Of a stretch of DNA of 64,000 nt, positions 26,099-57,125 are shown piece after piece. Below the pieces are notes generated by a model, which was not told the origin of the DNA, ran no database searches, and saw only the letters and a list, made by a program, of their open reading frames with translations. Each line of letters opens with the position of its first letter. Within the stretch, counting starts at the first letter, position 1. Made by a program: the position numbers and the translations under genes. Source of the stretch: Candidatus Accumulibacter aalborgensis (GTDB lineage Bacteria; Pseudomonadota; Gammaproteobacteria; Burkholderiales; Rhodocyclaceae); contig NZ_FLQX01000159.1 of NCBI RefSeq assembly GCF_900089955.1, positions 1 to 64,000 of the forward strand, read 5' to 3'.

Positions 26099-26128
26099 TT
26101 GACAAACAATTGGATAAGTGCTTTTATT
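26099..26128 (+). promoter_or_regulatory. Possible promoter of the transposase gene
   Basis: TTGACA (26099-26104) is followed after 18 bases by TTTATT (26123-26128), ending six bases before the transposase ATG at 26135. The -35 is perfect and the -10 is poor. The very short leader would leave little room for a ribosome site, so translation may start from a near-leaderless mRNA or the promoter call may be wrong. Confidence 0.3.
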
Positions 26129-26134
26129 GTCGGC

Positions 26135-27751
26135 ATGTACATCGCCCGCGTCCCCAACCGCAAATCCAGGCCGGCCATCCTGCTTCGCGAGTCCTATCGC
26201 GAGGGCGGCAAAGTCTGCACACGAACCATCGCCAATCTGACGAACTGGGCACCGGAACGAGTCGTGGCCATGGAACGTCTGGTGAAGGGCGAATTCGACG
26301 ACTGGTCGGGAGAGATGACCAGCGGCGAGATTTTTGGGGTGCTGTTGGCCCTCAAGCAGTTGGCCGACCAAGTGGGCATCACGCGGGTGCTGGGTAGCGC
26401 TGCGGAAAGCAAGCTCAACCTGTTCCTGATTCTCGCGCGTATCGCGCATGGGGGGTCGCGGTTGTCGGCGGTACGCTGGGCGAAACAGCACACGGTGGCC
26501 GATGTGTTGGGGGTGGAGGGCTTTGATGAGGACGACCTCTATGCCGCGCTGGACTGGCTGGCGAGCCAGCAGGAGCGCATCGAGCGAGAACTGTACCAGG
26601 CCTACGTCAAGGAGCAGGGCCAACCACCGGTCCTGGTGCTGTACGACGTGACCTCCAGCTATTTCGAAGGGGAATGCAACGAGCTGGGGCAATACGGCTA
26701 CAACCGCGACGGCAAGCGCGGCAAGCAGCAAATTGTCATCGGTTTGTTGACCGCCGAGGACGGCGAGCCTCTCGCGGTGCGCGTCTTCGAAGGCAACACC
26801 GCGGACCCGACGACGGTGGCCAGCCAGATCACGATCCTGAAGGAGCAGTTCGGGATTGCCGAGGTGGTGATGGTGGGCGATCGGGGAATGATCAAGGCCA
26901 AGGGGAAGGCCGCGCTGTCGGCGGAGGGCTTCCGTTATATCACGGCCTTGACTGACGCTCAGATACGCACCTTCCTCAAGGAGGGCGTGTTGCAGACGGA
27001 TCTGTTCGATACCCATCTGTGCGAGGTGGAGCACGACGACAAGCGCCTGATCGTGCGCCGGAACGAAACCGTGCGGGTGCGCGAGAGGCGGCGGCGAGAG
27101 GACAAGTTGGCGCAGTTGCAAGCGAAGATCGCCGAACGTAACGCCTTCGTCAAGAACTCCAGGCGCGCCAGCGCGGCGGCAGGCCTGGCCACCTTGCAGC
27201 GCTGGGCCAAGAGCCACAAGCTCAGCGCGTTTGTCACCCTGACGCTGAAAGAACGCGCCATTGTCTGTACCCTCGACGAGGAGGCCAAAGCGCAAGACGC
27301 CCTGCTCGACGGCTGCTATCTGCTGGAAACCGATGTGCCGCTGACCTTGATGGACGCGAAGACGGTCGATGCGCGTTATCGCGATCTGCAAAAAGTCGAG
27401 CGCAACTTCCGTACCGTGAAAACCACCTTCCTGGAGATTCGCCCGATCTTCCTGCGCAAGGCCGAGCGGACCAAGGCGCATGTCTTCGTGGCGATGCTCG
27501 CCTTGAAGATCACGCGGCGGTTTGAAGCCGATCTGCACCGGACCTTCGGCAGCACCGAAGACGACCCCGCAGCCATCACTCCGGACGACGCCCTGGTGGC
27601 GCTCGGACGATTGACCTATCTCTACAGCACCGACCGCAACGGTCAGCGTCACCCTCACCTGCCACGCCCGGACGAACAACAGGCCAAAATCCTCGAGGCC
27701 ATCGGCCTGTCCTTCCCGCTCAAGCCAAAAGCCGACAAGCGTGCCGTGTAG
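26135..27751 (+). CDS. IS1634-family transposase
   Basis: The 538-residue DDE transposase has the IS1634 opening (MYIARVPNRKSRPAILLRES). The first Asp is in VLYDVTSSYFEGE, the second in VVMVGDRGMI, and the YREK signature is YRDLQKVERNFRTVK. The gene looks complete. I could not find convincing terminal inverted repeats or a target duplication by eye in the AT-rich flanks (about 26030-26130 and 27752-27810), so the IS ends are left open. It sits between the decayed recombinase-linked gene and the element's decayed right end. Confidence 0.9.
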   Translation: MYIARVPNRKSRPAILLRESYREGGKVCTRTIANLTNWAPERVVAMERLVKGEFDDWSGEMTSGEIFGVLLALKQLADQVGITRVLGSAAESKLNLFLILARIAHGGSRLSAVRWAKQHTVADVLGVEGFDEDDLYAALDWLASQQERIERELYQAYVKEQGQPPVLVLYDVTSSYFEGECNELGQYGYNRDGKRGKQQIVIGLLTAEDGEPLAVRVFEGNTADPTTVASQITILKEQFGIAEVVMVGDRGMIKAKGKAALSAEGFRYITALTDAQIRTFLKEGVLQTDLFDTHLCEVEHDDKRLIVRRNETVRVRERRRREDKLAQLQAKIAERNAFVKNSRRASAAAGLATLQRWAKSHKLSAFVTLTLKERAIVCTLDEEAKAQDALLDGCYLLETDVPLTLMDAKTVDARYRDLQKVERNFRTVKTTFLEIRPIFLRKAERTKAHVFVAMLALKITRRFEADLHRTFGSTEDDPAAITPDDALVALGRLTYLYSTDRNGQRHPHLPRPDEQQAKILEAIGLSFPLKPKADKRAV

Positions 27752-46540: not shown

Positions 46541-49500
46541 TCAGCCACGAATCTTCCTCTTCAAGGCTCCGAACAAGCCGCCTTTCAGTTGCGGTTGCGC
46601 TCCCGGTTCTGCCTCGGCGAGGGTTTGCGGCGCGGCTACGGCTGCCGTGCCGGTCGAGGCACTCTGGGCCTTGTCTTTCGCCATCTGCCGTTCCTCGCAA
46701 ACGGCTGCCAGTTGGGCAAGGGTCTGGAACATGATTTCGCGCGGGTTGAGGACGATGCCGTAAGCGGACTTGAGGCGAGCGATGACGTCCATCAGCAGCA
46801 GCGAGTCGCCGCCCAGATCGAAGAAGTTGTCCTGCACCTCGATGTCACTGACACCCAGCGCGCTTCTCCAGATGCCGGCAATCGCGGCCTGCATTTCGCT
46901 GGCGTAGGCGACGCCGGGTGCGATGCCCGTGGTCGCCTGCGGGCTGGACGCGGCGCGCGGTTTGCGCTTGACCCACTGGGCGATGCGGGTGGATAGATCG
47001 GTGGTGGACACGATGATCTGTTGTCCCGCGTCGGCGGCGAGCATCCGGCGAAAGGCATCGACACCCTCCTCGGATGACAGGGCAAGATCGCTGACGATCG
47101 CTCCCATGCTGCGCTGGTCGGTGCGGGTGGCCGCCGGGATCCACGCGTCCCAGCCGATGGTCAACCACGCCGGACCGGGCTGGCCGGATTGATGGGCTTG
47201 ATGGGATTGGTGGGCAGCGTAGGCGTCCAGGTAAGCGTTGGCGGCCGCGTAGGCGGCGTAGCCCAGGCCGCCCAGTACTGACGAAATGGACGACAGGAGA
47301 ACGTAGAAGTCGGGCGGCTCGGCACGCAGCAGGTCGTGGAGGACCAGCAGCCCTTCCACTTTTGGCCGGAAGTGTTCGCCGCAGTGCTCCGGCCGGGTGT
47401 CCTGAACGGCGAGGAAAGCTTCCTCGGCGATGATGCCGGCGCCGTGGATGACCCCGTCGATACGCCCGAAGCGGCTCCTGGCCTGGTTGACCGCCCTGGC
47501 CATGGCGCCGGCATCGGCAACGTCGGCGGCGACGACCAGCACTTTCGCGCCAAGGGCCTGCAATGCGCGCACGCGGGCGATTCGCTGGCTGCCGGGGTCA
47601 CTGCTGGCGTGCGTGGCGATCCAGTGATCCCACTCGCCGGGATCGGGCAGGGCGCTGCGGCCGGTCAGGATCAGGCGGGCTTGCACGCTGCGGGCGAGTT
47701 CCTCGGCGAGGGCGTAGCCGATCGCACCGAGGCCGCCGGTGATGAGGTAGACGCCCTGCTGGCGCAAGCGACCCGGGGTGCCAGCCAAAGGTTCCAGGTG
47801 CAGCGGACGGTAGTCCTGAACCCAGCGTATGTTGTCGCGGTAGGCGACCATCGCATCGGCGGCATCGCTGCCCATCTCGATCCGGATCTGGTGACCGAGC
47901 CACTGCTCGGCCGCAGAACCGGCGGCGGGTGGCAGCAGGTCGAAGCAGCGGGTGTCGAGAGACGCGTATTCCTGCGCGATGACGATGCACGCAGCGATCA
48001 GTGTGCTCCGTTCGGGGAGAGGCAGTTCGGTCGCTGTCAGCGCGTGGATGGCGGTGCCGAGCACGCCGATCCGCAACGGTTCGCTATGGTTGCGGCTGCC
48101 CAGCGCCTGCGCCAGGTAGAGCAGGCTGTTGAAACCGAGATCCTGGGCGCGGGCAAAGTCTTCCGGATTCGGAGAGTGGTCGGGTGGCGGCGTCAGGTTC
48201 CAGGTATGCAGCGCGCTGTGCGGCAGCTTGCCGGCGCCAGCCAGGGCCTCGACCAGGGCGTCGTAGTCGGCACGCCGGGCCGGGTTGACGGTGAAGCAGC
48301 GCGCGCTGCTCCAGCCCGCCTGGCTGCCTGGCAGGACGCGGATCACGTTGTCGCCGGCCTGCTCCAGCTCGCCGGCCAGGTATTCGCCAAAGCCATCGCC
48401 AAGAGTGAACACCAGCCACGGCCCGCTGGCTGCCGGGCCACCGTCGCGCAGCGGGGTCTGCTGCCAGAACGGCTGATAGAACCAGTCGGCCAGGGGGCGT
48501 TTGCTGGCTGCGGCGCGGGGCGCGGGGCGATCATCGGTGACCGCCTGGGCCAGCAGTCGGCCAGGCTCGACCCAGTGCCGCTGACGTTCGAAGGGATAGC
48601 CCGGCAGGGGCACGCGGCGGCGTTTTTCATCGGCGTAGAAACCGGCCCAGTCCACCGTCACACCGGCCAGCCAGAGCTTGCCGAGGGTGGCCAGGAGCAT
48701 GGCCTGGTCGGGTTCCTCTTGCTGCGGGTGGCGCATCGACCACAGCGCGCCCTTGGCGCCGGACGTCGCGCTACAGAGTTGGGCGAGGGTGCCGAGAGTC
48801 CGGCCGGGGCCGACCTCGAGCAACAGCGGGTCGCCGTCGGCGATGACGGTGGCGATGCCGTCGGCAAAGCGCACGGTACGGCGCAGGTGCTGGACGTAAT
48901 AGGCAGGATCAGTGGCCTGGGCGGCAGTGAGCCAGGTTCCGCTGAGGTTGGAGACGACCGGGATGCGCGGCGCTTGCAGCCGAATCGCGGCGACCTCAGC
49001 GGCGAAGCGCGCCAGTATCGGGTCCATCATTGCCGAATGGAAGGCGTGCGAGGTATGCAGCGGCTGACATTGCCGTCCCTCGGCGGCCAACTGTCGCTGC
49101 CAGGCGGCGACGGCTTCCGTCGGTCCGGAAAGCACACAGCGACCCGGTGCGTTCACTCCGGCCAGCGCCAGGCCACGCGCGTCCAGGTCGGCGAGGACGC
49201 TTTCCGGCTGGTCTACGGCGAGCATACTGCCGGGAGGCATCTCCTGCATCAGACGGCCGCGGGCAGCCACCAGGCGGAGGGCGTCGGCGAGGCTGAGCAC
49301 GTCGGCCAGGCACAGGGCAGCGTATTCGCCGATGCTGTGGCCGATCATCGCCGTCGGTCGGACACCCCAGCTCATCCACAGGCGGGCGAGCGAGTATTCA
49401 ATGACGAACAGCGCCGGCTGGACGATCCACGTCTGCTGCAAGGGTTCGGCGTCGGCGTCGGCGTCGGGAGCTGACCACATCAGGTGGCGCAGGTCGTGTC

Positions 49501-51217
49501 CCAGGTGCGGAGCGAGAAGTTCGACGCAGAGGTCCACCTCGGCGCGAAACACGGGCTCGGAGTCGTACAGCTCGCGCCCCATGCCGAGATACTGGGCGCC
49601 CTGACCGGGGAACATGAAAACCACCGGTCGGTCGTTCAGTTCGCAGACCGACCCGGCGCTCCGCTGGGAGTCAGCGGTCAGCAGCGTCCGGGTCAGGCTG
49701 CTCTGCTCGGCGCACACCCATATCCGCCGCTGCGCAAAGCGTTGGCGACCGGTCTGCAAGGTGAAGACGATGTCGGCGAGCGTCTGCTCCGGATCGTGGC
49801 TGAGGTGAGCGGCGAGCCGTTCGCGCATCCGTTCGAGGGCGGTTGCCGTGCGCGCCGACAGGACGATCAGTTGCCAGGGACGCGACGGCGCCGCAGCCGC
49901 GCGGGCCGGCGCCTCTTCAAGGACTACATGGGCGTTGCTGCCACCGAGCCCGAACGAACTGACGCCGGCCCGGCGCACCGCCTGCGTCCAGTCGGCAAGG
50001 GCGGCATTGACGTAGAACGGGCTGTGGGCAAAGTCGATTTCCGGATTGGGGCGGCGGTAGTGGAGCGACGGTGGGATGCGGCGGTGTTCCAGCATCAGCG
50101 TCGTCTTGATCAGCCCGGCGACGCCCGAGGCCACGTCCATGTGGCCGATGTTCGTCTTTACCGACCCGATGGCACAGTAGCCCTGGCGATCGGTAGTCTC
50201 CCGGAAGGCCTGGGTGAGGGCCTTGATCTCGATCGGGTCGCCGATCGGCGTGCCGGTGCCGTGTGTTTCGATGTAGCCGATCTCGTCGGCGTCCACCGCG
50301 GCCATGGCCAGGGCTTCAGCCACCACCGCCGCTTGTCCGTACACGCTGGGAGCGGTGTAGCCGACCTTGGCGCTGCCGTCGTTGTTCACCGCCGAACCCT
50401 TGATCACCGAGTGGATGTGGTCGCCATCGGCGAGCGCGTCGGCCAGGCGCTTGAGGACGACGATGCCGACACCGCTGCCGAGCACCGTCCCGCGGGCGTC
50501 AGCGTCGAAGGCCCGGCAGTGCCCGTCGGCAGAATTGACGCCGCCTTCCTGGTAGCGGTAGCCGACCCGGTGCGGTACGGCAACGGAAATGCCGCCGGCC
50601 AGCGCCAGGTTGCACTCGCCGTTGAGCAGGCTCTGGCAGGCCACATGCACTGCCACCAGCGAGGTGGAGCAGGCCGATTGAATGTTGATGCTCGGGCCGG
50701 TGAGGTTGAGCTTGTAGGAGACACGAGTAGTCAGGTAGTCCTTGTCGTTGCCGATCTGGATCTGGAAATCGAACAGGGCAGGGGCGACGTCGGGGCGGCT
50801 GGCGAGGTTGTAGATCAGGTAGCCGTTCATCGCCGAGCCGGCAAAGACGCCGATCGCCCGGCCGTGCGAGGCGGGGGTGTAGCCGGCCCGTTCGAGGGCT
50901 TCCCAGGCGCACTCGAGAAAGATACGTTGCTGCGGTTCGATCAGGCTGGCTTCGCGCGGGCTGTAGCCGAAGAAGGTGGCGTCAAAGCAGTCGATCGGGT
51001 CGATGACCGCGCCGGCGCGGACGTAGGCGGGATCGGCGAGGAGGGCAGGATCGACGTGGGCGGCGAGGAGCTCGGCTTCGGAAAAGAAGCTGATCGATTC
51101 GACGCCCTGTTCGAGGTTGCGCCAGAAGGCGGTAACGTCGTCGGCGCCGGGGAAGCGGCAGCTCATGCCGACGATGGCGATAGCGGCCTCGTTTCGGGCG
51201 GGATCGGGCGGGTTCAT
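46541..51217 (-). CDS. Modular polyketide synthase, KS-AT-KR-ACP
   Basis: The 1558-residue type I PKS has one extension module. The KS holds its nucleophile in QSACSTSLVAVHVA (about residue 182), with HGTGTPIGDP and TNIGHMDVASG following. The AT has GHSIGEYAA (about 624) and HAFH, which indicates malonyl-CoA. After a structural half, the KR has TGGLGAIGYALA (about 1157) with the catalytic Ser-Tyr region SSISSVLGGLGYAAYAAAN. The ACP serine is in GGDSLLL (about 1468). There is no DH, ER or thioesterase, so the expected extension leaves a beta-hydroxyl. It overlaps the NRPS stop by four bases (ATGA) and is last in the operon. The frame remains open far upstream, but homology starts here. Confidence 0.92.
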   Translation of the reverse strand: MNPPDPARNEAAIAIVGMSCRFPGADDVTAFWRNLEQGVESISFFSEAELLAAHVDPALLADPAYVRAGAVIDPIDCFDATFFGYSPREASLIEPQQRIFLECAWEALERAGYTPASHGRAIGVFAGSAMNGYLIYNLASRPDVAPALFDFQIQIGNDKDYLTTRVSYKLNLTGPSINIQSACSTSLVAVHVACQSLLNGECNLALAGGISVAVPHRVGYRYQEGGVNSADGHCRAFDADARGTVLGSGVGIVVLKRLADALADGDHIHSVIKGSAVNNDGSAKVGYTAPSVYGQAAVVAEALAMAAVDADEIGYIETHGTGTPIGDPIEIKALTQAFRETTDRQGYCAIGSVKTNIGHMDVASGVAGLIKTTLMLEHRRIPPSLHYRRPNPEIDFAHSPFYVNAALADWTQAVRRAGVSSFGLGGSNAHVVLEEAPARAAAAPSRPWQLIVLSARTATALERMRERLAAHLSHDPEQTLADIVFTLQTGRQRFAQRRIWVCAEQSSLTRTLLTADSQRSAGSVCELNDRPVVFMFPGQGAQYLGMGRELYDSEPVFRAEVDLCVELLAPHLGHDLRHLMWSAPDADADAEPLQQTWIVQPALFVIEYSLARLWMSWGVRPTAMIGHSIGEYAALCLADVLSLADALRLVAARGRLMQEMPPGSMLAVDQPESVLADLDARGLALAGVNAPGRCVLSGPTEAVAAWQRQLAAEGRQCQPLHTSHAFHSAMMDPILARFAAEVAAIRLQAPRIPVVSNLSGTWLTAAQATDPAYYVQHLRRTVRFADGIATVIADGDPLLLEVGPGRTLGTLAQLCSATSGAKGALWSMRHPQQEEPDQAMLLATLGKLWLAGVTVDWAGFYADEKRRRVPLPGYPFERQRHWVEPGRLLAQAVTDDRPAPRAAASKRPLADWFYQPFWQQTPLRDGGPAASGPWLVFTLGDGFGEYLAGELEQAGDNVIRVLPGSQAGWSSARCFTVNPARRADYDALVEALAGAGKLPHSALHTWNLTPPPDHSPNPEDFARAQDLGFNSLLYLAQALGSRNHSEPLRIGVLGTAIHALTATELPLPERSTLIAACIVIAQEYASLDTRCFDLLPPAAGSAAEQWLGHQIRIEMGSDAADAMVAYRDNIRWVQDYRPLHLEPLAGTPGRLRQQGVYLITGGLGAIGYALAEELARSVQARLILTGRSALPDPGEWDHWIATHASSDPGSQRIARVRALQALGAKVLVVAADVADAGAMARAVNQARSRFGRIDGVIHGAGIIAEEAFLAVQDTRPEHCGEHFRPKVEGLLVLHDLLRAEPPDFYVLLSSISSVLGGLGYAAYAAANAYLDAYAAHQSHQAHQSGQPGPAWLTIGWDAWIPAATRTDQRSMGAIVSDLALSSEEGVDAFRRMLAADAGQQIIVSTTDLSTRIAQWVKRKPRAASSPQATTGIAPGVAYASEMQAAIAGIWRSALGVSDIEVQDNFFDLGGDSLLLMDVIARLKSAYGIVLNPREIMFQTLAQLAAVCEERQMAKDKAQSASTGTAAVAAPQTLAEAEPGAQPQLKGGLFGALKRKIRG

Positions 51218-54200
51218 GCGGGTAACGGCCGGCGGACGCGAATCGCCTGGCGCTGCGCGGCTCGGTCCCTTCCGGCCTGGGCCGAGGAAGGGGCAGCAGC
51301 GGAAGAAGCGGCAGAAGCGGCAGAAGCGGCAGATGACGCGCCGCTGGTCGGGGCGAGCGAAAGCGCCAGGCTGCTCACCGTCGGGTGCTGATACATTTGC
51401 ACGATCGGGATGGCGCGCTGCAGGTGCTCGCACAGGCGGCGATTCACTTCGACCAGGCGCAGGGAGGTGCCGCCAAGGTCGAAGAAGTTGTCGTTCTTGC
51501 CGACCCGGGGCAACTGCAGCACTGCTTGCCAGATGGCCGCGATGGCTTGCTCGGTTGCGTCGGTCGGGGCGACGTAGGGCGTATCGAGGGCCGCGAGACC
51601 GGCCACCGGAGCGGGCAGCGAGAGTCGGTCTACCTTGCCGCTGGGCGTCATCGGCAGTTCGGCGAGGATGGTGCAACTCGCCGGCACCATGTAGTCCGGC
51701 AAGCGTTCCCTCAACCAGGACTGGAGGGAAGCGGTCGTTGGCGGTGGGATCTGCCGCGCGACGACGTAAGCCGCGAGGGTGAGTTCTCCCGATTCGCCAG
51801 CGGGACGGGCGACGACCACTGCCGCGACGATCTCGGGGTGGCTGCGCAGGACGGTGCCGACTTCGTCCGGCTCGACGCGGAAGCCGCGGATCTTGACCTG
51901 GTGGTCGGCGCGACCGAGATAATCGATCAGTCCGTTCGCTCGGTAGCGGGCCAGGTCACCTGTGCGGTAGATGCGGGCCCCCGGCCGGTCCACGAAGGGG
52001 TTGGGAATGAACTTCTCGGCGCTCAGTTCAGGGCGTCCGAGGTAGCCGCGGGCAAGTCCGGCGCCACCGACGTAGAGTTCGCCGACGACGCCGACCGGCA
52101 CCGGCTGGCGGTGGGCGTCGAGGACGTAGGCCTGCACATTGGCGAGGGGGCGGCCGATGGGCACCAGGGTGTCCGTTGCAGTGAGCCGGCCGGCGTCGAA
52201 GAAACAGGCGTCGAAGGCCTCCGACAGTCCGTAGAGGTTGAGCAGCAGACGCCCCGGCATGGCCTGGGCAAAGCGCCGCGCAAGTTCCACCGTCAGCGGC
52301 TCGCCGCCGATGCACCACTCGCGCAGCAGCGGCAACTGGGCGGCGAGGTCGTTGTGCCTGTTGTGCGCTGCGAGCGTCTCGTGCACCTCGTGCGCGTCGA
52401 GCAGCATGCGCAGCAGCGACGGGACGAGCATCATCCGGCTGACCCCGTACTCCGCCAACAGGGCCACGAGAGCGTGCGGGTCGAGCAGCGTGGCCTGCGG
52501 TACGACGACGCTGGGCACGCCGCGCAACAGCGGGCCGAGAAGTTCCCACAGGGAATCGACGAAGTTGAGTGCGGTCTTGCACGCCGACACGTCGCCAGCG
52601 GCAAAGGGATATTCCCGCCACATCCACGCCAGGCGGTTGAGCAGTTGGCGCTGCTCGATCAGCACGCCCTTTGGCCGTCCGGTAGAGCCCGAGGTGAACA
52701 CCACGTAGGCCAGACTGCTGGCGCCGGCGCGGCTGGCCGGCCGAGTCGCGGGTTGCGCGGCGATCGCCGGCCAGTCGCGGTCGAGGCACAGCGTGCGGGC
52801 GTCGTGGGCGGGCAGCCGATCGAGCCAGCAGGTCTTGGTGAGGAGCTGGCCGACGGCGCTGTCGGCGAGCATTGCGCTCAGGCGCTGGGCCGGGTAAGTG
52901 GGGTCGAGGGGGACATAGCAGGCACCCGCCTTGAGGATGGCGAGGACAGCGACGAACAGCTCCGGCGAGCGCTCCAGCGCCACGCCGACCATCGTCTCGT
53001 GCCCGACACCGATCCTGACGAGGTGATGGGCGAGCCGGTTGGCCTGCTCATCGAGTTCACGGTAGCTCAGTCCGCCACCGGGGTCGAGGACTGCCGGTGC
53101 GTCCGGACTGCGATCCGCCTGTTGCTCGAAGAGACGCGCCAGGGACGAGTCAGCGGGATACTCGCCGTCGGTCGCGTTCCACTCATGCACCGTCCGCTGC
53201 CATTCGGCATTGGTGAGCAGGCGCAGCGTGGCCGCGGGTTTGCGGGTGTCTTCGGCCAGGTCGCCAAGCAGGCTCAGGTAGTGGTCAGCCATGCGCCGGA
53301 CGGTGGCTTCGTTGAACAGCGCCGGATCATAGATCAGGCGGGCGCTGAGAGCGTCACCACCATCGCCGCCGCCGCTATCGTCGACGCGCAGGCACAGGTC
53401 GTGCGGCGAAGTGTCGAGATCGACGGCGAAGGGGCGCAGCGCGCTCGGGCCGGCGCGCAAGGAGCGCGGCTCCGGTGCCTTGCGGTAGTCGAAGAGGACC
53501 TGGCAGATCGGCGCGTAGCTTGTATCGTGGTGCTCTGCAAGCGCTTCGATGAGCCGCTCGAAGGGCATCGCGGCGTGGGTGTGGGCATCTTCCAGGGCCG
53601 CGTTGGCGAGGCCAAGAAGGGCGTCGCTATGCACGTCGGCGGCGAGATCCAGGCGCAGCGCGAGGGTGTTGTCGAGTGCTCCGACGAGACTGGAAAAGCG
53701 CGCTTCGCTGCGGTAGCTGCTGCGCAGGCCAACGATGAGGTCGCTCTGGCCGCTGTGGCGCTGAAGCAGGGCGGCAAGCGCGGCGAGGAGGACGCTCTGG
53801 AGATGGTCTCCGCGTTTTGCGGCCAGGCCACGCAGGCGCGCGACGAGGTCGATCGGCAGCGTCAAACGCAGGCTGGCGCCTGCGTAGCGCTGGCTTGCCG
53901 GCCGCGCGTGGTCGGCCGGCAGTTCGAGCACGGCTGCGGCACCGGCGAGACGTTCCCGCCAGTGGGCAAGGAGCGCGGGCGGCTGGTGGCGTTGCCAGGC
54001 GACGAAATCGGCGAAACTGCCCGTGCCGGGGGCGACGGGCTGGTCGCCGTCAAGCTGACCGGCGATCTCTGCGATGAGCAAGCCGAGGGATTCCTCGTCG
54101 CACACGTAGCGGTGCGCGCAGAGCAGGAGCAGGTGCTCGTCATCAGCGAGACGCAGCAGCCGTGCCCATAGCAGGGGGCCGCGGCCCGGGTCGATGCGAG

Positions 54201-54624
54201 CGCCGGCAGTGTCGGCGATCCAGCGCGCCGTCGCTGCTTCATGGGCGGGGGTGCCGCGTCGCTCGGTGAGCGTGTCTACGCTCAGTGCGGCGGGCGCGGC
54301 CACGGCATCGGCCGCCGGGCCGAATCCGCAGCGGAGCGCGTCATGACGGGCAAAGACTCGGGCCAGGGCGTTGCGCAGAGTTTCGACATCGAGGACGCTG
54401 CCGGCGATGCGCGCGCCCATCGCGACCCGGAGCCAGACCTGGCCGGGATAGGCCAACTCCAGGAACCACGTTCGTTCCTGGCCGCAGCTCCGGACAGGAG
54501 CCGGCGAAGGATGTAAAGGATGGGCAGCGGGCGGCGCAGCGGTGAGCACGGGAGGCAGGTGGTCGCTGATCACCGGTCGCCGGTCGCCGGTAGACCGCGG
54601 CGCGTCTGTGGATGCGTTCAACAT
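51214..54624 (-). CDS. Nonribosomal peptide synthetase, C-A-PCP
   Basis: The 1136-residue single-module NRPS starts with a perfect GGAGG site upstream of the ATG at 54624. The condensation domain (to about residue 470) carries HRYVCDE where HHxxxDG is expected, so two conserved positions differ. The adenylation domain has FTSGSTGRPKG (about 638), NLYGLSEAFD (instead of NxYGPTE), YRTGDLARY, QVKIRGFRVE and the A10 lysine in PSGKVDR. In the A4 segment NFVDSLWELL, Val stands at the place of the Asp that normally binds the amino group. The PCP serine is in FFDLGGTSL (about 1046). No thioesterase is present; the chain should pass to the PKS encoded next. Confidence 0.92.
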   Translation of the reverse strand: MLNASTDAPRSTGDRRPVISDHLPPVLTAAPPAAHPLHPSPAPVRSCGQERTWFLELAYPGQVWLRVAMGARIAGSVLDVETLRNALARVFARHDALRCGFGPAADAVAAPAALSVDTLTERRGTPAHEAATARWIADTAGARIDPGRGPLLWARLLRLADDEHLLLLCAHRYVCDEESLGLLIAEIAGQLDGDQPVAPGTGSFADFVAWQRHQPPALLAHWRERLAGAAAVLELPADHARPASQRYAGASLRLTLPIDLVARLRGLAAKRGDHLQSVLLAALAALLQRHSGQSDLIVGLRSSYRSEARFSSLVGALDNTLALRLDLAADVHSDALLGLANAALEDAHTHAAMPFERLIEALAEHHDTSYAPICQVLFDYRKAPEPRSLRAGPSALRPFAVDLDTSPHDLCLRVDDSGGGDGGDALSARLIYDPALFNEATVRRMADHYLSLLGDLAEDTRKPAATLRLLTNAEWQRTVHEWNATDGEYPADSSLARLFEQQADRSPDAPAVLDPGGGLSYRELDEQANRLAHHLVRIGVGHETMVGVALERSPELFVAVLAILKAGACYVPLDPTYPAQRLSAMLADSAVGQLLTKTCWLDRLPAHDARTLCLDRDWPAIAAQPATRPASRAGASSLAYVVFTSGSTGRPKGVLIEQRQLLNRLAWMWREYPFAAGDVSACKTALNFVDSLWELLGPLLRGVPSVVVPQATLLDPHALVALLAEYGVSRMMLVPSLLRMLLDAHEVHETLAAHNRHNDLAAQLPLLREWCIGGEPLTVELARRFAQAMPGRLLLNLYGLSEAFDACFFDAGRLTATDTLVPIGRPLANVQAYVLDAHRQPVPVGVVGELYVGGAGLARGYLGRPELSAEKFIPNPFVDRPGARIYRTGDLARYRANGLIDYLGRADHQVKIRGFRVEPDEVGTVLRSHPEIVAAVVVARPAGESGELTLAAYVVARQIPPPTTASLQSWLRERLPDYMVPASCTILAELPMTPSGKVDRLSLPAPVAGLAALDTPYVAPTDATEQAIAAIWQAVLQLPRVGKNDNFFDLGGTSLRLVEVNRRLCEHLQRAIPIVQMYQHPTVSSLALSLAPTSGASSAASAASAASSAAAPSSAQAGRDRAAQRQAIRVRRPLPA

Positions 54625-55475
54625 GATCCCTCCTGGGTCTTTGTGGGTTGTCGAAGCATGCCGCCGCTGGCCGCGAGGCTTGCGCCACCGACCTGAAAGC
54701 AGCGGACTTGCGCGCGGCTGATGAGCGTGAGGGCCGGGATAGCGGCAGCGATGACGTGGTCGGCGTCCGGACAGGCGGAAAACAGCGTCCAGCGACCTCC
54801 CGCTCTGGCCACCGCTCCGGCCACTGTTGCGTTCCCGATCGCTCCCTTCCGAAGGCTGACCGAGACGCTCTCCGGCGCGGTGGCAAGGCCCGTCCCGAGG
54901 CTCTTGAGAACAGCTTCCTTGCCCGCCCAGAGGCGGAAGAAATCCCGCTCCTGCTGCTGCGCCGGCCGGCTCGCCAGCCAGTCCCGTTCGACGCTGCTCA
55001 GACAGTGGGCGATGAGCGCGTCCCGGTCGGGAAGGGGGCGGATGCGCTCGATGTCCACGCCCACCGGCAACCCTCGGGTCACGCCGATGAGCGCGAGGTC
55101 GTGGCACCGGGAAAAGTTGAAGTACAGCCCTTCGGTGTGGCACAGCTCGGGTTTGCCGTAGTCGTTGGCGACGAAGGCGAGGCTTGCCGGTGGGCGGCCG
55201 AGGTAATTCCCGAGCACGAGCCGCAGCAGGCCGCGACCGTGGATCTGGCGTCGGCGATCGACGGGGAATACGAGACGTGCGGCGCGTGCGCGCTCGGCCG
55301 GGTCGGGGAGCGCTTCCACCGTCCGTCGCAGATCGTCGTCGGGAACTGGCAAAGGGCATAGCCAGAGGTGAATTTCGTTGCCGGAGAGGTCCGGCACGCT
55401 GCTCCCCCCACCGAGCAGAGGCGTCGGGCGTTCCGGCGCGACAGGAAAGCGCGCTTCAGCCGGCGAAGCGTGCAT
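54618..55475 (-). CDS. Sfp-type 4'-phosphopantetheinyl transferase
   Basis: The enzyme moves the phosphopantetheine arm of CoA onto carrier proteins, here most likely the PCP and ACP of the adjacent NRPS and PKS. The 285-residue length and motifs GVDIERIRPL and FFRLWAGKEAVLKSLG (magnesium and CoA-binding) are those of the Sfp/Gsp group. The segment LYFNFSRCHDLALIG matches the usual N-FNxSHs region with Cys-His order kept. It overlaps the NRPS start by seven bases and the hydrolase before it by 20. A start 12 codons upstream (55511) is possible. Confidence 0.92.
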   Translation of the reverse strand: MHASPAEARFPVAPERPTPLLGGGSSVPDLSGNEIHLWLCPLPVPDDDLRRTVEALPDPAERARAARLVFPVDRRRQIHGRGLLRLVLGNYLGRPPASLAFVANDYGKPELCHTEGLYFNFSRCHDLALIGVTRGLPVGVDIERIRPLPDRDALIAHCLSSVERDWLASRPAQQQERDFFRLWAGKEAVLKSLGTGLATAPESVSVSLRKGAIGNATVAGAVARAGGRWTLFSACPDADHVIAAAIPALTLISRAQVRCFQVGGASLAASGGMLRQPTKTQEGSC

Positions 55476-56343
55476 CGGCCCAGCGGCGCAGAACGGCCAC
55501 CAGTGCGTCACGGCTTTGGCGCGGGGTGAAGGTGTGATCTGCCGCGGCCAAGTGGACCTCGGTGAAGTTCCGGTGCGCAGCGATCTTCTTCATCTCCTTG
55601 CCGAACATCATTTGCATGTAATCGATGGCCGGGTCACTTTCGGAATAGACCATCAGCAACGCGGTGCCGCGGCCGAGTACCGCGTCGAAGGCGTCGCGCA
55701 ATTCCCTCGCCGCAGCGGGTACTTGTTCATGGGCGATGAAGCGGCGCATGAGCGGTCGCCCGATGACTCCCAGGAGTTCGAGAGGCTTTACCTGGCCGCT
55801 GACCAGCTTGCGCCAGCTAGCCGGGTTGAAAAGCGCGCTCTTCCAGAGGTAGTGCGCCGAGGTGGTTGCGCCAAGAGCACTATCGACGGCGGCTTCGAGG
55901 GCATCGCCGGCGTCGTCGGTAACCCCATGCAGGGCGCGGCCGTTGATCAGCACCGCACCGACTACCGTCGGCTGGTCGCGGGCGGTGAGGAAGGAGATGT
56001 CGGCGCCGGAGCAGATGCCGCACAGAATGAAACGGGTCGCGCCGCTCTCCCTGCCGACGGTGGCCATGGCGGCAGAGGTTTCGCTGATCGCGGCCTGCTC
56101 GAAGCCAAGGGCGTCGCTGCGCGGGCTGCTGTCGCCGATCGACGAGAGGTCGAAGCGCAGCACCGGATAGTCCGCGGCCGCCAGTTGGCGCGCCAGGTTC
56201 ACGTACAGGCGGTTGGGTCCGACACGATGGACCACCCCCGAATTCACCAGAACGATCGCGGGACGCCTGCCGCGCGTGGCGGCGGGAGTGTAAATTCCGA
56301 TCAGGCTGTCGTCGTCGCCAAAGCAGAGGACGCTCTCGTTCAT
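55456..56343 (-). CDS. Alpha/beta hydrolase with GxCxG elbow (exosortase-associated type)
   Basis: The 295-residue alpha/beta hydrolase resembles the hydrolases that accompany exosortase-A polysaccharide loci. The strand-plus-oxyanion region is AIVLVNSGVVHRVGPNRLYVNLA, followed by VLRFDLSSIGDS. The nucleophile elbow reads LCGICSGAD, so by position the nucleophile is Cys, as in dienelactone hydrolases, with Ser next to it. The C-terminal His is likely in AADHTFTP. It may release or edit the NRPS-PKS product in place of a thioesterase; this is inference. The start overlaps the preceding hydrolase gene by four bases. Confidence 0.8.
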   Translation of the reverse strand: MNESVLCFGDDDSLIGIYTPAATRGRRPAIVLVNSGVVHRVGPNRLYVNLARQLAAADYPVLRFDLSSIGDSSPRSDALGFEQAAISETSAAMATVGRESGATRFILCGICSGADISFLTARDQPTVVGAVLINGRALHGVTDDAGDALEAAVDSALGATTSAHYLWKSALFNPASWRKLVSGQVKPLELLGVIGRPLMRRFIAHEQVPAAARELRDAFDAVLGRGTALLMVYSESDPAIDYMQMMFGKEMKKIAAHRNFTEVHLAAADHTFTPRQSRDALVAVLRRWADARFAG

Positions 56344-57125
56344 GGTGTCCCTGTCTGCGCCCATGCGATCATTGCTTGCAGGACGCGGGCAGGGGGCATC
56401 AGGACGTCGCCCAGATCGGGCGCTTCCGACCAGAACTCGGGCCAGAGCACATGTTGCCGTTCCGCAGTCAGGCCGAGGGCGGCGAGCCGCTCGCCGAAGG
56501 CATCGGGGTCAGGCTGCGGGCTGCTGCTCATCAGCAGGGCGCGCGGGGCTGGCGCGCGCGACAGCTTGCCGAGGTCGATGGCGCGCAGGCCGGCTTCAAG
56601 CCGCGGCGAGAGAAGGAAACCGACGATTTCGCGGGTCCCGTCTGCCGGCGGGGGAGGGTCCGTCCGCCAGAGCTGCAGGCGCCGCCAGCGTTGGTGGGCG
56701 CTGATCAGGGTGTCGACGTAGCGATTGCCGTCCACCACCGGGTCCCACAGGATGAGGCCGTCCACATCCTGGTGCTGCGCCGCATGCAGGGTGGCCAGGC
56801 TGGCGCCGACGCGGAAGCCGGCAAGGCAGACCCGCGTGCCGGCGGTGACCTTGCCGAAGGTGCTCACCGCTGTCGCGATGTCGTCGAGCCACTGCTCCAC
56901 ACTGCCTTCGTCGTCGCCACCGGCCGAATCGCCGCTGCCGAAGTAGTCGAAGCGCAGAACCGGGAAGCCGGCGCGTGACAGGCGAACAGCCCATTGCCGG
57001 AAGCTGCGGTGGGCAAAGATGTATTCGCGGCCAAATGGCGGGCAGAGAACGAAACCTAAGGGGCGGACTGTTGCCCCCTGCGGCGTGTGGACGCGGTAAA
57101 AGAGCTGCCGGTCGGTTGCCCCCAT
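56340..57125 (-). CDS. Alpha/beta hydrolase fold protein lacking a Ser nucleophile
   Basis: The 261-residue protein resembles exosortase-A-associated hydrolases. The oxyanion strand is GFVLCPPFGREYIFAHRSFR, followed by VLRFDYFGSGDS. Where GxSxG is expected it has CLAGFRVGAS, so Arg sits at the nucleophile position. That is known for some members of this associated family (GLRLG-type) and suggests a non-hydrolytic or altered role. It is the first gene of the minus-strand operon leading to the PPTase, NRPS and PKS; 31 bases separate it from sodB upstream. The open frame continues upstream of 57125 into sodB, but that extension has no homology. Confidence 0.78.
   Translation of the reverse strand: MGATDRQLFYRVHTPQGATVRPLGFVLCPPFGREYIFAHRSFRQWAVRLSRAGFPVLRFDYFGSGDSAGGDDEGSVEQWLDDIATAVSTFGKVTAGTRVCLAGFRVGASLATLHAAQHQDVDGLILWDPVVDGNRYVDTLISAHQRWRRLQLWRTDPPPPADGTREIVGFLLSPRLEAGLRAIDLGKLSRAPAPRALLMSSSPQPDPDAFGERLAALGLTAERQHVLWPEFWSEAPDLGDVLMPPARVLQAMIAWAQTGTP

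Follow-up and report, generated by a model that had tools for sequence, protein, structure and literature searches.

A compact, mobile NRPS-PKS cassette in Candidatus Accumulibacter aalborgensis and its putative split release enzyme

The window analysed here is a stretch of 64,000 nucleotides of Candidatus Accumulibacter aalborgensis (contig NZ_FLQX01000159.1). Its minus strand carries, from position 57125 down to 46541, five genes encoding in this order two alpha/beta-hydrolase-fold proteins (H2 and H1), a 4'-phosphopantetheinyl transferase (PPTase), a non-ribosomal peptide synthetase (NRPS) and a polyketide synthase (PKS) (Table 1). ORFs, Pfam domains and start sites agreed on this layout, and all junctions between the genes overlap, by 4 to 20 bases. 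The gene set, its coordinates, the domain order and the overlaps were thus as claimed in the original prediction made from the same DNA, and so was the presence of a PPTase within the operon. The nearest NCBIfam model of this PPTase was HetI, with a score below the cut-off. In the Pfam search, the NRPS showed Condensation, AMP-binding and PP-binding domains, and the PKS showed KS, malonyl-type AT, KR and PP-binding domains. Active-site motifs of the PKS were intact (SACSTS in KS, GHSIGE and HAFHS in AT, GGLGAIG and YAAAN in KR), as were the carrier motifs of the PCP and ACP, serines included. With catalytic domains in module order and intact carrier serines, the two proteins belong to the type I modular NRPS-PKS systems. 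This domain content and the intact KS, AT and KR motifs support the predicted use of one amino-type unit and one malonate extension followed by ketoreduction only. Motif inspection gave no clear diagnostic motif for KR stereochemistry. The Pfam search of both synthases revealed neither a thioesterase nor a terminal reductase domain. Such a domain is optional for modular NRPS-PKS systems, and release in trans is known.

Table 1 Features of the five-gene cassette in the window
Feature	Position	Strand	Evidence
H2, alpha/beta-hydrolase-fold protein without nucleophile	56340..57125	-	Weak TIGR03101 match, elbow Arg, structure model
H1, alpha/beta hydrolase with candidate Cys111 and His270	55456..56343	-	Weak TIGR03100 match, residue conservation, structure model
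Sfp/HetI-type 4'-phosphopantetheinyl transferase	54618..55475	-	PF01648, 2.4e-18
NRPS, C-A-PCP	51214..54624	-	Pfam domains; start from orthologue comparison and ribosome-binding site AGGAGG
Condensation domain, HRYVCDE replacing HHxxxDG	53200..54480	-	PF00668; motif in all orthologues
Adenylation domain	51634..53130	-	PF00501 and PF13193; aligned to LgrA and to 57 A/ligase domains
Peptidyl carrier domain, motif DLGGTSLRL	51364..51549	-	PF00550
PKS, KS-AT-KR-ACP	46541..51217	-	Pfam domains, motifs intact
Basic C-terminal PKS tail GGLFGALKRKIRG, after variable linker	46544..46582	-	Conserved across copies

The operon was present, at different sites, in four of 28 genomes of the genus Candidatus Accumulibacter and in Zoogloea oleivorans. 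Protein identity among the orthologues was 55-80% and gene order was the same, with different flanks. In the window the cassette lies after an XseA-SOD gene pair, in two relatives it lies after a tRNA-Ser gene, and in the third relative and in Zoogloea it is found elsewhere. One Zoogloea copy is complete (L035), while the other is cut by a contig end within the NRPS gene (L036); a contig end also cuts the PKS of one Accumulibacter copy (L033, genome G026). The occurrence of the same five genes in the same order between differing flanks indicates that the boundaries are real and that these genes travel as one unit. The G+C content of the cassette is 68.3%, compared with about 62.5% in the flanks. 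Taken from these comparisons, the cassette appears to be a horizontally moving unit; the NRPS-PKS pathway is real, mobile and compact, and its product is a predicted one. The XseA-SOD pairing is kept across the genus; the other three genomes with a cassette have SOD at a separate locus. Short H2 matches at SOD loci came from the part of a long H2 ORF that overlaps SOD. An IS1634-family transposase gene lies at 26099-27751 of the window, about 19 kb from the cassette. In one Accumulibacter copy (L028:8271-11610, genome G019) the NRPS gene is split over two reading frames, by a frameshift or an assembly error. NRPS clusters of Accumulibacter were counted in earlier surveys (PMC9765116, PMC10681181), and our literature search on Zoogloea NRPS and Accumulibacter clusters returned general surveys only.

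The leading C domain had been proposed to acylate the amino unit. Its active site reads HRYVCDE, whereas nearly all other sampled C domains have the active condensation motif HHxxxDG. The second catalytic His is replaced by Arg in every cassette orthologue (pattern HRxxxDE), which argues against the proposal: the domain is probably an inactive remnant, and N-acylation by it is doubtful. Another His-to-Arg change at this position was seen in an NRPS-H2 fusion discussed below (L092:9560-13525, HRLAADY).

Alignments to LgrA and to 57 A/ligase domains gave the A-domain signature V235, D236, W239, M278, C299, G301 and L322 (VDWMCGL). In A domains, Asp235 anchors the alpha-amino group of the substrate. 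All cassette copies have Val in its place, whereas Asp is kept by nearly all other NRPS A domains sampled; Val at 235 was exclusive to the cassette copies among the 57 domains, several of which are the same gene in overlapping loci. The loss of Asp235 favours a beta- or omega-amino acid as starter. Furthermore, the signature resembles what we take to be the NRPS beta-alanine code, agreeing at V235, D236, W239 and L322 and differing at 278, 299 and 301; a literature search yielded no confirmation of this code. The A domain is therefore likely, judging from its signature, to load a beta- or omega-amino acid, with beta-alanine as the most likely one. The cassette domain differs from the beta-amino A domains of known structural basis, those of the VinN type, which keep Asp at 235 (review PMC11253843). 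The beta13-beta14 loop, one residue shorter in the VinN type, was gapped by one aligner and ungapped by the other. Beta-alanine, one malonate and one ketoreduction would leave 5-amino-3-hydroxypentanoate on the carrier, not a gamma-amino statine unit.

The C-terminal tail of the PKS (GGLFGALKRKIRG) differs at one residue near its end among the three Accumulibacter copies and Zoogloea, and the preceding linker varies. It is a possible docking element. Loosely similar basic tails end the synthases of four other loci (L076, L077, L087 and L090) and are absent from those of L075 and L097; given these two loci, a general docking tail was left as an idea.

The two hydrolases had been described as exosortase-associated. 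They do match the hydrolase 1 and hydrolase 2 models of the exosortase A system, but with scores that fall far short of the curated cut-offs (H1 against TIGR03100, 102.9 bits, cut-off 168.5; H2 against TIGR03101, 81.1 bits, cut-off 202.8), which places them outside both families. A genuine hydrolase 1, with a score above the cut-off, is encoded elsewhere in the same genome, on contig C94, and no exosortase A or EPS genes were found among the cassette neighbours examined. In H1, Cys111 (at about 56011-56013) and His270 (at about 55534-55536) are invariant in 19 diverse relatives, and all 54 sampled H1-type domains have an elbow Cys and a His near the C-terminus. The position of the triad acid is not conserved across relatives. 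The elbow of H2 reads GFRVGA, with Arg105 at about 56811-56813; at this place no sampled H2-type domain has a nucleophile, the residue being Arg or, in a subgroup, Gly. By these residues, H1 looks like the catalytic protein and H2 like its conserved dead partner. Structure models built from shallow alignments gave the alpha/beta-hydrolase fold for both (pLDDT 70.6 for H1 and 75.5 for H2). Fold matches of the H1 model included dienelactone hydrolases and the thioesterase DcsB (Z about 19-21.5), with ordinary esterases scoring equally. In a genome-wide profile search for PF00975, the family of classical thioesterases, there was no match for H1 or H2 nor on the window contig, and the five matches in the genome were all on other contigs. 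The window contig continues for only 857 bases beyond the window, to 64857, so that the location of these matches also speaks against a trans-acting thioesterase encoded nearby.

Relatives of the pair were collected by H1 similarity alone, at class and phylum level, and are spread over the Pseudomonadota. At six loci in five genomes (L078, L079, L080, L084, L088 and L092, with L080 and L092 from one genome), an NRPS carries H2 as a C-terminal fusion directly behind A-PCP, H1 is the next gene, and the synthetases have no thioesterase domain. H2 thus occupies the terminal thioesterase position of other synthetases. The description of the cassette as thioesterase-free holds for classical domains within its synthases, but it is misleading, since H2/H1 are the leading release-enzyme candidates. 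Three of the fused synthetases (L078, L079 and L088) share an unusual signature, DIEH(V/I)TA, and adjoin a class III aminotransferase gene; in L088 a PPTase gene follows H1. Elsewhere, NRPS, H2 and H1 are separate genes, or the pair occurs with an exosortase A ligase and a PLP decarboxylase, or a single H2-H1 protein is encoded beside an ACP, an acyl-CoA dehydrogenase, an amino acid:[carrier protein] ligase, DUF1839 and GH2 (L038, L039, L041, L099, L100, L104-L106, L108, L109 and L111). When plasmids were searched with H1, no relative exceeded about 32% identity; those retrieved lay in amino acid:[carrier protein] ligase and EPS contexts.

A carrier-system gene (adenylation enzyme, amino acid:[carrier protein] ligase or carrier) was present within about 10 kb at 19 of 29 profile-found phylum-level loci, compared with two of 20 controls drawn from the remaining alpha/beta hydrolases of these genomes (Fisher's exact test: p = 1.2e-4; p = 5e-4 with 3/20 controls when a weak edge match is included). 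These values are indicative, as the criterion was set after the first loci had been seen, the loci are partly non-independent and some contigs are short. Seven of the 29 loci had no carrier system within reach. In the class-level set, 16 of 18 loci had such a context. In seven NRPS loci, a DILQ-type signature, presumably the glycine code, is found in the final A domain ahead of H2; a literature search on this code yielded nothing useful. Together with the malonate-derived last unit of the cassette, this suggests that the acyl group handled by H2/H1 may often be without an alpha side chain. Two single proteins of about 1100 aa (L039:9571-12882 and L108:7164-10496) have a polysaccharide flippase domain (PF13440) fused to H2-H1, a fusion that would tie the pair directly to glycan export. 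Polysaccharide deacetylase, flippase, glycosyltransferase and sugar-nucleotide genes were found beside several NRPS-H2-H1 loci. An open frame of 1597 aa without Pfam match (L087:14596-19386) adjoins an NRPS-PKS-H2-H1 locus and sugar genes.

We consider the cassette, with a probability of roughly 0.55 for the reading as a whole, to be a self-contained mobile pathway for one small amino acid that is released by H2/H1. For this pathway we infer the substrate, the step order, catalysis by H1, the role of H2, the acceptor and the product as follows. The PPTase would arm both carrier domains, and the A domain would place a beta- or omega-amino acid on the PCP, with the C domain standing idle. The KS would accept the PCP-borne unit and extend it with one malonate, and the KR would reduce the ketone. 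The carrier would then bear a delta-amino-beta-hydroxy acyl group (5-amino-3-hydroxypentanoyl-S-ACP in the case of beta-alanine). The Cys of H1 would take the acyl group off the ACP, and H2, with Arg at the nucleophile position, may dock the carrier or shape the acceptor site. The likeliest acceptor would be a surface polysaccharide, at one of its hydroxyl or amine groups, and water or the product's own amine would be less likely. We tentatively rank such surface-glycan transfer above hydrolysis and lactam formation because sugar genes recur among the relatives, both in the flippase fusions and beside the NRPS-H2-H1 loci. Sugar genes are absent from the cassette itself, so the choice of a glycan acceptor comes from these relatives.

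H2/H1 could instead be editing hydrolases that clear mis-primed carriers like type II thioesterases, the product leaving through a distant thioesterase or by spontaneous closure of the 5-amino-3-hydroxyacyl chain to a 4-hydroxy-2-piperidone. Type II thioesterases are indeed stand-alone alpha/beta hydrolases, and the five PF00975 proteins encoded elsewhere in the genome could supply the distant enzyme. We regard editing as unlikely, given that fused H2 takes the place of a terminal thioesterase in synthetases that have no thioesterase domain, and that the pair also serves loci with a carrier for a single aminoacyl group. A role in polysaccharide metabolism, with the two genes in the operon by chance, would fit the relatives in exosortase A and polysaccharide loci. 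This is very improbable, because the mobile unit consists of exactly these five genes, with H2 and H1 among them, and because PCP-H2 fusions exist in other genomes. As to the substrate, the original prediction was a statine-like gamma-amino-beta-hydroxy acid made from an ordinary alpha-amino acid, and such units are usually made by the order C-A-PCP followed by KS-AT-KR-ACP. The V235/D236 pair of the A domain, found in all cassette copies, makes it a distinctly poor candidate beside a beta- or omega-amino starter.

The exosortase A system itself is among the closest known parallels. Its hydrolases 1 and 2, which accompany an ACP, an AMP-forming ligase and a PLP decarboxylase, likewise form a tandem H2-H1 pair, with a GxCxxA elbow and a His in H1 and no nucleophile in H2, and an adenylating ligase and a carrier are encoded nearby. 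The YGLxEAF motif is common to the ligase and the cassette A domain (YGLTEAF in the ligases of L116-L120, L122 and L123; YGLSEAF in the cassette; usual NRPS A domains have YGPTE). In contrast, the cassette pair scores far below the family cut-offs and is partnered with a modular NRPS-PKS and a PPTase, and the genuine pair is on another contig. The amino acid:[carrier protein] ligase loci of Azospirillum, Rhizobium and Mycetohabitans similarly have a fused H2-H1 next to a carrier protein and the enzyme that aminoacylates it, but an aminoacyl-tRNA synthetase-like ligase, an acyl-CoA dehydrogenase, DUF1839 and GH2 take the place of the NRPS-PKS. According to PMC9437257, the biological role of these ligases is unknown. 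Like H1/H2, the thioesterases of NRPS/PKS systems, both C-terminal and type II (PF00975), have the alpha/beta-hydrolase fold, and H2 stands at the same terminal position in the six synthetases. Unlike them, H1/H2 do not match PF00975, comprise two chains, one of which has no nucleophile, and have Cys for the usual Ser. Dienelactone hydrolase and DcsB resemble H1 in fold, and the nucleophile of wild-type dienelactone hydrolase is likewise a Cys (the matched entries are C123S mutants); however, they are single chains of about 15% identity, and many ordinary esterases match as well. Finally, beta-amino acid-primed PKSs of the vicenistatin, incednine and fluvirucin type (PMC11284099) extend a beta-amino starter by a type I PKS, as would the cassette. 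The cassette differs in extending only once, in having its A domain inside C-A-PCP with Asp at 236 instead of 235, and in having no macrolactam thioesterase.

The H2/H1 pair, most likely a split release enzyme of carrier-bound chains, is a more interesting result than the pathway itself. Our literature search found no paper on H2/H1 as a release module, with most subscription journals outside the search, and general surveys only on the exosortase hydrolases. It is conceivable, though we put it at somewhat less than even odds, that H2/H1 is a widespread, unrecognised split release enzyme in which a Cys-His hydrolase and a regular dead partner transfer aminoacyl or peptidyl groups from carriers to surface polysaccharides, alike for loading by NRPS/PKS systems, by aminoacyl-tRNA synthetase-like carrier ligases and by the exosortase A ligase. 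This would give a testable role to the two exosortase A hydrolases annotated as hypothetical equivalogs and to the amino acid:[carrier protein] ligase loci. If true, H2/H1 would also explain chain release in some NRPS/PKS clusters described as thioesterase-free, and annotators should list the pair among candidate release modules. Accumulibacter and Zoogloea play important roles in phosphorus removal and in the formation of flocs, so that a mobile pathway with a possible part in decorating their surface would be relevant to wastewater treatment.
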